From Nitrospinota bacterium (lineage in GTDB: Bacteria > Tectomicrobia > Entotheonellia > J063), in the NCBI GenBank assembly GCA_003696125.1, contig RFHZ01000256.1:1-7985 (forward strand): a stretch of 7,985 nt of DNA, in the 5' to 3' direction. Shown piece after piece: positions 1,858 to 7,494 of the stretch; positions within the stretch are counted from its first letter, which is position 1; each line of letters starts with the position of its first letter. Below the pieces are notes generated by a model. It was not told the origin of the DNA. It ran no database searches and saw only the letters and a program-made list of their open reading frames with translations. The translations under genes and the position numbers were made by a program.

Positions 1858-2091
1858 TTAGAGCCGTTCGCGGATCTTGTCGATGATCTCTTTGTGTTCA
1901 GGAAACTGGCCTGTTTCCAGCTTGGAGTAGACCAGTTCCTTGTTCAGGCTGATTTCGAAGCGTCCTCCTGACGACGGTACCAGGGTCAGGGAGGTGAGCG
2001 CCTGCCCAAACGTTTCCAGGATATCTTTGCTCAGGGCAACTGCCTGAGGAGTGTAGTTTCACGCTGCACAGTAAACGATCTCGACCTGCAT
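1858..2091 (-). CDS. SelW-like Rdx-family selenoprotein (CxxU), UGA read as selenocysteine
   Basis: Reading the minus strand from ATG at 2091 gives a 77-residue protein beginning MQVEIVYCAA, then an in-frame UGA (2061-2059), then NYTPQA and an open frame to TAA at 1858. With UGA as Sec the motif is YCAAUNY, the redox CxxU (Cys8, Sec11) of the SelW/SelT/SelH (Rdx, thioredoxin-like) family. The part after the UGA keeps the family pattern: SSGGRFEISLNKELVYSK (about 40-57), then ETGQFPE (59-65) and a C-terminal helix. Total length is typical of the small bacterial members. Start choice: AAGGAGG lies 7 nt upstream and residue 2 onward is the usual beta-strand leading to the CxxU. In-frame ATGs at 2166 and 2118 have weaker ribosome sites. 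Family members are thought to act as thiol or selenol oxidoreductases; the substrate here is unknown. It has its own promoter and a likely SECIS hairpin. Confidence 0.9.
2030..2048 (-). promoter_or_regulatory. Candidate bacterial SECIS hairpin downstream of the Sec UGA
   Basis: On the selenoprotein mRNA, CTCAGG (2048-2043) pairs perfectly with CCTGAG (2035-2030) around the 7-nt loop CAGUUGC. The stem begins 11 nt and the loop 17 nt after the UGA. Further GC pairing could close the loop to about AGUU, which keeps a G near its start. This fits what is known of bacterial SECIS elements: they lie inside the coding region just after the UGA, and SelB reads a G/U in the apical loop. The hairpin is seen directly; SelB recognition is inferred. 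Confidence 0.65.
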
Positions 2092-2098
2092 AAGTAGC

Positions 2099-2105
2099 CC
2101 TCCTT
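2099..2105 (-). promoter_or_regulatory. Ribosome binding site that fixes the selenoprotein start
   Basis: The minus strand reads AAGGAGG, then 7 nt, then the ATG at 2091. This is a full-strength Shine-Dalgarno at ideal spacing. It is the main reason for choosing this start over the in-frame upstream ATGs at 2118 and 2166. Confidence 0.8.
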
Positions 2106-2164: not shown

Positions 2165-2193
2165 ATTATACCATAAAGCCTTCTCTCCTCCAA
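2165..2193 (-). promoter_or_regulatory. Sigma-70-like promoter for the selenoprotein gene
   Basis: On the minus strand: TTGGAG (-35, 2193-2188), a 17-bp spacer, and a perfect TATAAT (-10, 2170-2165) preceded by TGG (extended -10). It lies in the gap between the cyclase stop (2203) and the selenoprotein ATG (2091), leaving a leader of roughly 67 nt. So the selenoprotein can be transcribed apart from the cyclase, though read-through is possible. Confidence 0.7.
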
Positions 2194-2202
2194 CCTCCTT
2201 TT

Positions 2203-4005
2203 TCACCGCAAGGGCTGGGCAGAGACGGCGACCTCGACGCGATACACCGTGACCGGCTCACTCACATTCTTGAGATGGTGCTTGCCGATTTCCCGTACCG
2301 GGACGACCCCCTGCACCCGTCTTGCCGTCTCCTCTCCGATCAGGATCTCTCCCTGTGTGGCCAGCTCACCCAGGCGGGCGGCGATGTTGGTGACCGGTCC
2401 AGAAGCGGTAAAGGTCCAGCGGGTGCCGGTGATCCCTTCAAAGCGGGTAGAGCCGACCGCAGCACTGCCGGAGTTGATCCCGATGTTGACGAGGAGCGGC
2501 TGATATCTCCCCTGCAGGCTCTGGTTAATGGAGGCCACCTTTTGCTGGATGGCCACGGCGGTCTGGACCGCATTGAGGGCGTGCCGTCTCCTATCGCCAT
2601 CCTGAAAGATGATCATCAGCCCGTCTCCGGCCGTTTCGTTGATGTCACCGTTATGGCGATAGATATCATCCAGGAAGCTGGAGAAGTAGTGCTCGACCAG
2701 ATAGTTCACCTTTTCCAGATCGATGGTCTCGCTGAGGTGCGTGTACCCGGCGATGTCGAGGAAGAGGACAGAGACGTCCCTATCGTGCTTTTCCAGATCA
2801 GGAGCCTCCGGAGTGGTCTCGATGATCCGTTTCACCGCTTCCGGTACGAACTTCCCCAGATGGGTCTTGATGTTCTCGAGCAGCCGGACCTTTTGCAGTG
2901 TGGACTCCAGCTCCACATTCTTCTGCCGGAGATCCTCATAGGCGGCCTGCAGTGCCTCTGTCTTCTCCTGCAAAGCCTGCGCCATCCGGTTATAGGAGTC
3001 GGCCAGGATCCCGATTTCGTCCTGCGACCTGACCACGATACGGAGATCGTAGTTTCCGGCGCTGACCGCGGTGGTGCCGGCAACCAGTTTCTGCACCGGG
3101 GCGGTAATGCTCCGCGCCATGACAAAGCTGATGATGAGGGCAATGCCCACGCCGCTGGCACCGATCAGGATGAGGGCCTTCTGGAGGGTGCGGAGGAATC
3201 CCAGGGCTTCATCCACAGACCGCTGAAGCACGTACAACCCTAGCGGTTCGTTCCTGCTCCCCCGGATAGGGGCGATAAGCGAGAGATAGTCTTCACCATG
3301 TACCGTGATCAGGCGCAGCTCTTCTCCCTTTTCCCCCTGGGGCTGTCCTGAGAGGAGAAGGTGAGCCAGGGTCCTTTTTCCCTGCTCCTGCCAGGTGGAA
3401 GCAACGGCCCGGCTGAAGGTCAGGAAGGTGATCTCACTCCGTGTCGCTTTCTTTAACTCTCTGGTGACCGCATCGTCGATCAGAAAGCCGATACTGAGCG
3501 TGCCAAGAATGTCCGAGCCGGCCTTCAGGGGTACGGTAGCCACCTGGTAGAGGGTCTCCATCAATACCCAGTTCGTGGTCGATTCCTTTCCCTGAAGAGC
3601 AGCGCGGATGGCTGGGAGACCAGAGACGTCTTCGCCAGCTATCTCTGGTCTGTCGGTCCGGGCCAGCACTCTGCCTGCGGCATCGGTGATCAGGAAGAGC
3701 TGGCTGTTGACCCGGGCCTGGAAGGTCATGGCCGCGGAGAGGACGGTCCCGGGATCGTAAGTCGCCACCGCGGTGCGAAGGGCAAAGTCCTTGCCCAAAA
3801 GGCGGCAGATGGCGAGGAGGCTCGCATAGCGGGTACGTTGGAACTCGGCGAAAACAGACTGGGCCCCTTGCAGATCGCTCTCCACATTGCGGTACATCTG
3901 GCGGGTTACCCAGAGGTTGACCACGAGAAGGGTGGAGAGGATGAGGACCAGAACGAGGGCAGAGACCAGGAGGAAGAGCTTGGTCTGAAGACGGAAGCGA
4001 ATCAT
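2203..4005 (-). CDS. Membrane CACHE-HAMP class III nucleotide cyclase
   Basis: This 600-residue sensor cyclase makes a cyclic nucleotide from ATP or GTP. Order of parts: cytoplasmic start and TM1 (about 8-32), a periplasmic CACHE-like sensor region (about 33-275), TM2 (about 278-296), HAMP (about 297-350), a coiled-coil linker (about 340-380), and a class III cyclase domain (about 408-590). Metal ligands are present: Asp417 in FLDIAGYT and Asp461 in AGDGLMIIF. The transition-state pair Asn540 and Arg544 lies in VTNIAARL. The two base-selecting positions are Glu457 (normally Lys in adenylate cyclases) and Thr531 (normally Asp or Thr). Glu is the guanylate-cyclase residue at the first site, so the substrate is uncertain. 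The start has an AGGA site 8 nt upstream. The gene follows the secreted cupredoxin-like gene by 17 nt, almost certainly in one operon. The ligand of the sensor domain is unknown. Confidence 0.93.
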   Translation of the reverse strand: MIRFRLQTKLFLLVSALVLVLILSTLLVVNLWVTRQMYRNVESDLQGAQSVFAEFQRTRYASLLAICRLLGKDFALRTAVATYDPGTVLSAAMTFQARVNSQLFLITDAAGRVLARTDRPEIAGEDVSGLPAIRAALQGKESTTNWVLMETLYQVATVPLKAGSDILGTLSIGFLIDDAVTRELKKATRSEITFLTFSRAVASTWQEQGKRTLAHLLLSGQPQGEKGEELRLITVHGEDYLSLIAPIRGSRNEPLGLYVLQRSVDEALGFLRTLQKALILIGASGVGIALIISFVMARSITAPVQKLVAGTTAVSAGNYDLRIVVRSQDEIGILADSYNRMAQALQEKTEALQAAYEDLRQKNVELESTLQKVRLLENIKTHLGKFVPEAVKRIIETTPEAPDLEKHDRDVSVLFLDIAGYTHLSETIDLEKVNYLVEHYFSSFLDDIYRHNGDINETAGDGLMIIFQDGDRRRHALNAVQTAVAIQQKVASINQSLQGRYQPLLVNIGINSGSAAVGSTRFEGITGTRWTFTASGPVTNIAARLGELATQGEILIGEETARRVQGVVPVREIGKHHLKNVSEPVTVYRVEVAVSAQPLR

Positions 4006-4022: not shown

Positions 4023-4634
4023 TTATTGCTCCTGATCTGAGAGCAGGAGATCTATTCTCTGCTTCTGCCCCTTCCCTATCTCGACACGGCGCGGGCTCCC
4101 TCGTAGGGTCTTATGCCAGGTGCGCAGCAGGTAGGTGCCGGGGGGAAAGCCGGAAAGGGTGTAGTTTCCCTGGGGATCGGTCACCGTAAAGTAGGGGGTC
4201 TCTAAGACGAGGATGATGGCTTGCATGCTGTCGTGGATGTTGCAAAAGACCTTGATCACCCCTGGTTTATCAAAAACCACCGACTTCTCCTCTCCCGGTT
4301 TATAGAGTCCCAGGTTGAACTGCTTGGGCCGGGAGAGGGAGTAGATGTTGTGGTAGACCGTATCATGATTGGGGAAGAGGACGCGTGTCCCTACCAGGAT
4401 AGGGAGGAGAGGGGGGACAAAGGCGATATGGCGCTGTTCCATCACGGCCGGTTCGGCGGGAGGAGAGAAAGGGGGGTGGCTGTCCAGCGGTTCGACCCAG
4501 ACGGCCACCCAGGGCAACCGCTCTCCGCTACCAGCCTTGTGGACCGTACCGCTGATCGTCTGGGCAGAACCGTAAACGCTCCCACCCAGGAGTAAGATAC
4601 AGACATGAAGGATGATCAGCCATGCGGGTCTCAT
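4023..4634 (-). CDS. Secreted cupredoxin-like protein with carboxypeptidase-regulatory-like C-terminus
   Basis: This is a 203-residue exported protein of the kind often labelled methylamine utilization protein in databases, although nothing here ties it to methylamine. Residues 1-25 are a signal peptide (hydrophobic LIILHVCILLLGG, likely cut after SAQ). Residues 27-145 look like a plastocyanin-like fold. The expected type 1 copper ligands can be picked out: His95 (TVYHNIYS), then Cys131, His134 and Met137 in FCNIHDSM. Residues 148-197 (DPQGNYTLSGFPPGTYLLRTWH) match a carboxypeptidase regulatory-like beta-sandwich. It acts outside the cytoplasmic membrane, probably binding copper or serving as a structural or electron-transfer protein. 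A purine-rich GGGGAGGGGAG precedes the ATG. It is the first gene of a two-gene unit with the CACHE cyclase, which suggests it helps sensing or is regulated with it. Copper binding is inferred from motifs only. Confidence 0.82.
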   Translation of the reverse strand: MRPAWLIILHVCILLLGGSVYGSAQTISGTVHKAGSGERLPWVAVWVEPLDSHPPFSPPAEPAVMEQRHIAFVPPLLPILVGTRVLFPNHDTVYHNIYSLSRPKQFNLGLYKPGEEKSVVFDKPGVIKVFCNIHDSMQAIILVLETPYFTVTDPQGNYTLSGFPPGTYLLRTWHKTLRGSPRRVEIGKGQKQRIDLLLSDQEQ

Positions 4635-5530: not shown

Positions 5531-6640
5531 TTAGTTCTCCTGTTTCCATGCCTGCCGGAAGAAGCGCAGCGCATTGCCGCTGAGGATGTCATTGATCTCC
5601 TGATCCGTGTAGCCCGCCTCCTTCAGGACCGTTCCGAAGTTTTGCAGGTCAGCGATGGTATCGACATCGATCGGGGTCAGCTCGGCACCAAACCCGCCAT
5701 CCATGTCTGTACCGATGGCGATGTTCTTTAGCGAACCCCCGGCCAGATTCCCGATATGTTCGATATGGGGGAGGAGTCCCTCCATGCCGTACCGGGGCGT
5801 ATAGTTCTTCAAATCGGGCCGGTTTTCCCACTCGATGTCGGGATCGATGAACCACTGGCAGAAGACCAGGCCGATGATCCCGTCGCGGGCAATCAACTCC
5901 TTGATCATGTCATCGGTGAGGTGGCGTTGCCCTCTGATCAGGGCACGACAGACGCAGTGGGAAGCCATGATCGGTCCATCCCAAAGGGCAAAGGACTCCC
6001 ATACCGCCTGGTCGGCCATGTGGGTGATGTCGAGGATCATACCCACCTCGCGCATCGCCTTGTAAAGGGCTTTAGCTGGGGGTTTGAGTCCCCCCTCTGT
6101 TCCGGTACCATGAATGTAGGTGTTGTGCCCGAAGTGTGCCGGTCCCACGACCCGCAAGCCGGCATTCCACCAGAACTCCACGTCATCAGGATCGGCGATC
6201 GGGTCTGCACTCTCCATGGAGAGGATGTGGTAGATCGGTGTGGTGTCGGTAGGGTTTTTCCACACTTCCACTGCTTCCTCCAGATCGGCCAGGGAACGAA
6301 CCGGTTTGATCTCCCCCCGCCTGGCCATGGCCTGGTAGTAGGCGAGGTGGCCCCGGCCTATGGCCATGGTCTGCTCCTGGGTACGCATCCCATCCCGGAG
6401 TAGACCGCGTCGCGAATCGATGCGGGACATGATCGAGCTGAGGATGATGCCCACATTACCGCGTCGCAGTTCCGGGAAGGTGACGGTACAGAGACCGGTG
6501 TTGTACCCGTCGGCGAACAGGGGAGGCTCACTCGCCTCTTGCTGTCGCACTTCGTGTGCGGTACGGGTGAGATCCCTGTTCCAGAAGAGGGCATCCCAGG
6601 CCAGATCGAGGTGTAGATCGATGATCAACGGTCGGCTCAT
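5531..6640 (-). CDS. Membrane-dipeptidase-type peptidase (family M19)
   Basis: This 369-residue zinc hydrolase belongs to the renal dipeptidase family, whose members split dipeptides, often with a C-terminal D-residue. The expected metal ligands are all visible: His10 and Asp12 in IDLHLDLAWD, bridging Glu143 in SMESADPI, His207 in LDITHMAD and His228 in MASHCVCRAL. Asp312 in GTDMDGGFG is the acid/base residue. There is no signal peptide, so a cytoplasmic location is likely. The open frame continues 87 codons upstream to 6901, but that part overlaps the promoter and the methyltransferase gene and looks nothing like the family. The ATG at 6640 has GGAGG 7 nt before it and gives the family's usual beginning. 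It heads a two-gene unit with the SDR downstream, driven by the promoter at 6695-6723. The physiological substrate is unknown. Confidence 0.94.
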   Translation of the reverse strand: MSRPLIIDLHLDLAWDALFWNRDLTRTAHEVRQQEASEPPLFADGYNTGLCTVTFPELRRGNVGIILSSIMSRIDSRRGLLRDGMRTQEQTMAIGRGHLAYYQAMARRGEIKPVRSLADLEEAVEVWKNPTDTTPIYHILSMESADPIADPDDVEFWWNAGLRVVGPAHFGHNTYIHGTGTEGGLKPPAKALYKAMREVGMILDITHMADQAVWESFALWDGPIMASHCVCRALIRGQRHLTDDMIKELIARDGIIGLVFCQWFIDPDIEWENRPDLKNYTPRYGMEGLLPHIEHIGNLAGGSLKNIAIGTDMDGGFGAELTPIDVDTIADLQNFGTVLKEAGYTDQEINDILSGNALRFFRQAWKQEN

Positions 6641-6750: not shown

Positions 6751-7494
6751 TTAAGAGGCACTTTCCGGATGGCAGACAGGACAGGGAGTGAAACCCAGCC
6801 GGGCAGGATCGAGCTGCCGGGAGAGGAGGAGCGTATTGCCCGGCGGATTCTGCGGGAGAGAGGGGCAGTCCGGCCGGCAATACCGGCGACTGTTCCACCA
6901 CCCCACATGCATCTGCTGTCGATCGATGTAGATCTTCTTCCCCCTGGTCTGCAGGGGAATACCCTCCAGCGCCAGCAGGGTAGACTTCCTCTCCAATCCG
7001 CCTGCATACCCGGTGAGGCTGCCATCACTCCCGATGATCCGGTGGCAGGGGATGACGATGGCCAGCGGGTTTTTGCCCAGGGCCTGCGCCACCGCCCGCA
7101 CGGCCTGGGGGCGTCCCAGCGCCTCGGCCACTCCCCGGTAGCTCATCACCGCACCACGGGGGATCCCGGATATCAGGCGAAGGACCTGCTGCTGGAGATC
7201 TCCTCGCATCAACCGGTCATCGATCGGCCACACAAGCTCCTCCCGTTCACCGGCCAGATAGGCCTGCAGCTCGCTGTACAGGGCCTCCAGTTCTGCCCCA
7301 TCCTCCTCGACCACCACACCGCGCATCGAGGAGAGACACGGCAGGAGACGAGAGGCTTTGCCCGGCCAGGTCACCATGACCACCCCCTGCTCTGAACGTA
7401 CCAGGTACAGGTCGCCGAGCGGGGAGGAGAAGACACGATAGTGGATATGCACCACTTCATGAGCATCACAGGAAAACGGGGATAACGGGGACAT
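6751..7494 (-). CDS. ogt: Methylated-DNA-[protein]-cysteine S-methyltransferase with C-terminal Ada-type zinc domain
   Basis: This 247-residue DNA repair protein transfers the methyl group of O6-methylguanine to its own cysteine, once per molecule. Residues 15-85 are the ribonuclease H-like N-terminal part. Residues 98-180 are the catalytic domain, with helix-turn-helix SYRGVAEALGRPQAVRAVAQALG, probable arginine finger Arg133, and acceptor Cys150 in IPCHRIIG. Residues 195-243 are an extra piece not found in plain Ogt: RYCRPDCPS and GFTPCPVCHP. These give Cys206, Cys210, Cys238 and Cys241 with nearly the spacing of the zinc site in the N-terminal domain of E. coli Ada. There that domain binds zinc and accepts methyl from phosphotriesters; here it sits at the opposite end, with no AraC-type HTH region. 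AAGGAG about 8 nt upstream supports the ATG at 7494. The gene lies 77 bases after the MFS gene on the same strand. Confidence 0.93.
   Translation of the reverse strand: MSPLSPFSCDAHEVVHIHYRVFSSPLGDLYLVRSEQGVVMVTWPGKASRLLPCLSSMRGVVVEEDGAELEALYSELQAYLAGEREELVWPIDDRLMRGDLQQQVLRLISGIPRGAVMSYRGVAEALGRPQAVRAVAQALGKNPLAIVIPCHRIIGSDGSLTGYAGGLERKSTLLALEGIPLQTRGKKIYIDRQQMHVGWWNSRRYCRPDCPSLPQNPPGNTLLLSRQLDPARLGFTPCPVCHPESAS

Follow-up and report, generated by a model that had tools for sequence, protein, structure and literature searches.

The stretch of DNA analysed here, referred to as the window, comprises 7,985 nt of contig RFHZ01000256.1 from a Nitrospinota bacterium (GenBank assembly GCA_003696125.1). 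Between positions 1858 and 2091, its minus strand carries a small SelW-like gene of the Rdx family, whose reading frame is crossed by a single UGA codon. The first-pass annotation of this DNA had placed the gene at these coordinates, which are correct, and had given no strand. The gene and its associated features are as follows.

1858..2091, minus strand: SelW-like (Rdx family) gene, very probably of a selenoprotein; 77 aa with one selenocysteine (Sec), ATG start and TAA stop, translated with TGA as U
2059..2061, minus strand: in-frame UGA, codon 11, the predicted Sec of the CAAU (CxxU) redox motif, from the translation and the homologue codons
2030..2048, minus strand: putative SECIS hairpin of the bacterial type; stem of 7 pairs with one bulged nucleotide, closed by the loop AGUU (2041-2038) at 17 nt from the UGA; MFE -8.2 kcal/mol
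2099..2104, minus strand: Shine-Dalgarno sequence AGGAGG, 7 nt 5' of the ATG, read directly from the sequence
2165..2193, minus strand: possible sigma-70 promoter (TTGGAG, 17 nt, TATAAT), from a pattern search; a stricter scan did not report it

The same strand holds a gene for a HAMP and adenylate/guanylate cyclase protein (2203-4005), which directly follows a gene at 4023-4634 with carboxypeptidase-regulatory-like and weak plastocyanin-like matches. Another minus-strand gene, at 6751-7494, encodes an MGMT-type DNA methyltransferase with a C-terminal Ada-like zinc-binding match (residues 197-244) just below the cut-off; in E. coli Ada the order of the domains is the reverse.

Read with UGA as U, the minus strand of 1858-2091 translates as MQVEIVYCAAUNYTPQAVALSKDILETFGQALTSLTLVPSSGGRFEISLNKELVYSKLETGQFPEHKEIIDKIRERL*, with codon 11 as the only in-frame UGA. 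A six-frame search of the genome recovered the gene independently, also with one internal TGA. UGA is ordinarily a stop codon, and standard gene finding can be expected to overlook this copy; in the window's ORF list, no ORF of at least 20 aa covers the Rdx frame 3' of the UGA. It is plausible that standard gene callers would miss or truncate this gene. The alternative that the real gene is a 102-aa ORF overlapping it in a different frame (1898-2206, minus) was rejected, as that ORF has no Pfam match. No DNA-level relative of the SelW-like gene was found in the plasmid collection, and a permissive Rfam scan placed no RNA element there; the sole Rfam match in the window was a sub-threshold glutamine-II elsewhere.

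The full Shine-Dalgarno sequence claimed in the first-pass annotation is indeed present, while the promoter attributed to the gene stands in part. Its TATAAT is perfect and stands at a spacing of 17 nt from TTGGAG, but the latter is a poor -35 element, and because it matches at only three of six positions, a generic sigma-70 scan of the window reported no site. A search for TTG-N20-TATAAT gave one occurrence in the window and none in 200 shuffles, a count that refers to a pattern chosen after the site had been seen.

The assignment to the Rdx family is firm. The PF10262 (Rdx) profile matches the 77-aa protein at 2.5e-25 (88.9 bits against a cut-off of 22.6) over positions 1-74 of 74, and the match runs across the UGA, so that a single homology extends over both sides and the codon interrupts one small protein, as had been proposed. 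TIGR02174 (CXXU_selWTH) also scores above its cut-off (3.9e-20, 71.9 against 34.2), and the narrower NF041051 profile falls slightly below (85 against 88). In an AlphaFold2 model with cysteine (Cys) replacing Sec (pLDDT 97.4), the CxxU motif, at positions 8 and 11, follows the first strand of the predicted thioredoxin-like fold. The model superposes on bacterial SelW-related crystal structures with TM scores of 0.91-0.96 and an rmsd of about 1 Å; these are the best structural matches, followed by MIEN1 and mouse SelW, and then by thioredoxins. The sequence at 1858-2091 is a real small SelW-like gene.

The comparison of homologues bears directly on the UGA. The 33 homologues from other genomes, gathered by a whole-genome search and a search of named-genome contigs whose results may overlap by a few genomes, carry TGA at the codon of interest in 28 cases and TGC or TGT in five (L022-L025 and L048); a second SelW-like copy in the window's own assembly is not counted among them. 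The UGA stands where homologues hold Sec or Cys, which is the pattern that identifies a selenoprotein gene, and it occupies the second redox position of CxxC/CxxU, here C-A-A-U, as the first-pass annotation had stated. The relatives nearest by sequence (L043-L045, from Planctomycetales, Chloroflexi and Latescibacteria MAGs) are 49-53% identical and all have TGA. The named-genome scan found relatives of at most 53% identity, in other groups (Planctomycetales, Chloroflexi, Latescibacteria and others). Across an alignment of 24 sequences, residues 8, 11, G43 and F45 are invariant when Sec is counted as Cys.

The genes needed for Sec decoding, which the first-pass annotation had proposed to look for, are present in the assembly (G000; 4.18 Mb in 990 contigs, 94.8% complete, 7.98% contaminated), with selA and selD cut by contig ends. 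selB adjoins most of selA on contig C102, and a 5' part of selA lies on contig C184. The two selA pieces (L018:1-528 on C184 and L017:1501-2592 on C102) share an overlap of about 85 residues with a few differing positions, which suggests two co-assembled strains. A tRNA-Sec with anticodon UCA, scoring 74 bits where the gathering cut-off is 47, is found on contig C328. Only the first third of selD is available (contig C684, L019:3-302, minus), ending at the contig end, and it contains an in-frame UGA (VACAGUASKMSP) at what, judging by E. coli SelD, is probably the position of the catalytic Cys (CAGUASK). The hairpin 3' of this UGA is strong (z -3.8 versus synonymous recodings), and the fragment is itself a probable selenoprotein gene.

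The contamination figure prompted a check of where SelB comes from, made against 98 genomes that mostly represent other groups within the domain. Its four closest matches, at 58-62% identity, were exactly the four same-class genomes, all of which also carry Rdx genes with TGA. The closeness of SelB to those of the four sampled same-class genomes argues against contamination, and together with their TGA-containing Rdx genes it makes it most likely, as far as sequence relationships can tell, that the Sec trait belongs to this lineage.

Three further genes of the assembly have UGA in CxxU motifs, namely a second SelW-like gene and two CMD/AhpD-like genes. The second SelW-like gene (L002:1498-1728, contig C710) is divergent, begins MEIEISYCTEUGYLAEAV, and has its UGA in CTEU with a hairpin 3' of it; its neighbours, identified by eye, are a phosphoesterase-like ORF on one side and, on the other, a convergent ORF resembling chemotaxis receptors. 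The CMD/AhpD-like genes contain in-frame UGA in CTTU (L055, contig C428, match 6261-6422) and CAYU (L056, contig C657, match 3140-3355), and both are likely further selenoproteins. No in-frame UGA was found in the AhpC-TSA and molybdopterin Fe4S4 domains of the assembly, the latter being a domain that may miss the catalytic Sec of formate dehydrogenase.

With this evidence in hand, other explanations of the UGA can be weighed. A sequencing or assembly error would make the true codon TGC or TGT and the product an ordinary Cys-containing Rdx protein; Cys homologues of this kind do exist, and the assembly is a fragmented MAG. Nevertheless, base-calling error is an unlikely source of the UGA because 28 of the 33 homologues in other genomes, the nearest ones included, have TGA at the same codon, and the same assembly holds the Sec machinery together with four further genes whose UGA falls at a redox position. 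We consider such an error highly improbable. The same low probability applies to a decayed pseudogene in which the UGA is a true stop. The nominal stop after 10 codons, with no common start codon reopening the frame soon afterwards, would fit decay, but the remaining frame is intact, with a Shine-Dalgarno sequence, a TAA stop and a whole-length Rdx match, and the UGA falls exactly at the residue where relatives hold Sec. On the sequences compared, neither sequencing error nor gene decay explains the TGA/TGC/TGT pattern among homologues.

It is barely conceivable that UGA is read genome-wide as another amino acid, such as Trp in code 4. In-frame UGA in several genes of the assembly might be taken that way, but those found sit at redox Cys positions, the cyclase gene at 2203-4005 has TGA as its stop, the long genes of the window contain no internal TGA when read with table 11, and a tRNA-Sec with the UCA anticodon is present. 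We infer with very high confidence that 1858-2091 is a SelW-like selenoprotein gene (Rdx family, thioredoxin fold) in which the UGA at codon 11 is decoded as selenocysteine.

The putative SECIS element has the sequence CUCAGGC-AGUU-G(C)CCUGAG, with a 4-nt loop in which G is second and is followed by U. Published criteria for bacterial SECIS elements are a loop of 3-9 nt, an upper stem of 4-16 bp, G in the first two loop positions, a distance of 16-37 nt from the UGA and an MFE of at most -7.5 kcal/mol (PMC13188914), and the hairpin at 2030-2048 agrees with all of them. Its folding energy differs little from that of shuffles (z -0.92), and for a single hairpin this quantity is not decisive with either shuffles or synonymous recodings as reference; comparative evidence and the published geometry were used for this reason. 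When the peptide is recoded synonymously, only 6% of the recodings satisfy the published criteria, but so do 38 of the 230 TGA triplets in the window (17%), a low specificity. The hairpin is therefore supportive, not decisive, and by itself weak evidence of a SECIS.

Among the homologues the hairpin stem covaries, with six of the seven pairs changed on both sides; such two-sided changes fill 19 cells, where shuffles give 6.1 and slid registers no more than 15. Because the hairpin loop of the window sequence lies some 4 nt closer to the UGA than that of most homologues, this sequence does not have the covarying stem in register. The spacing from UGA to loop is 17 nt here, compared with about 20-21 nt in the organism's own selD and in most SelW-like homologues. 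A tentative and rather doubtful suggestion is that the SelB of this organism recognises SECIS hairpins at variable spacing; if true, the lineage would be useful for the study of SECIS spacing tolerance.

In the mechanism we propose, SelB with GTP and Sec-tRNA-Sec would bind the hairpin just 3' of the UGA, and codon 11 would be decoded as selenocysteine, giving a product of 77 residues with the redox motif C8-A-A-U11. By analogy with the family, the Sec selenol and Cys8 would probably form a reversible selenenylsulfide, which may function in the redox chemistry of thiols and disulfides or of peroxides, glutathione or thioredoxin being the probable reductant.

Knowledge of SelW-like selenoproteins in bacteria goes back to about 2005. 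With the described members of this family the window protein shares the Rdx family, the CxxU motif with Sec second, the small single domain, the SECIS-like hairpin right after the UGA and Sec machinery in the genome, and it differs in its low identity to the aligned relatives (28-52%) and in the position of its hairpin loop, which is about 4 nt closer to the UGA than in most of them. The structures from Agrobacterium (2fa8), Vibrio (2p0g) and Streptomyces (3dex) have the same fold and sequence profile at 30-37% identity, and presumably carry Cys, not Sec. Mammalian selenoprotein W (2npb), which has a CxxU motif, shares the Rdx family and thioredoxin-like fold (TM 0.74) at 23% identity. The SECIS of eukaryotic SelW lies in the 3' UTR, whereas the window hairpin lies in the coding region beside the UGA.

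SelW-like CxxU proteins were the most abundant family of the Sargasso Sea set, with 48 genes; their function was called unclear, and the CxxU motif was taken to suggest a redox role (PMC1088965). Bacterial SelW-like selenoproteins have been described in several phyla, with Geobacter, Desulfotalea, Symbiobacterium and others among their carriers (PMC1794560), and PF10262/CxxU selenoproteins also appear in a 2026 review (PMC13188914). The first-pass reading of an overlooked selenoprotein gene of the SelW-like Rdx family is thus upheld, but not the degree of surprise attached to it, since such bacterial selenoproteins are common and long described. Insofar as sequence data can speak to them, the two refuting conditions set in the first-pass annotation both favour its reading. 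The gene is a sound member of a well-known family, and the general phenomenon is well established. Taken as a whole, the assembly points to use of the 21st amino acid by this genome, with at least five candidate genes. Through the present gene, a poorly sampled bacterial class gains a small redox selenoprotein of the sort that gene calling easily overlooks, and the value of the finding lies in correct annotation.
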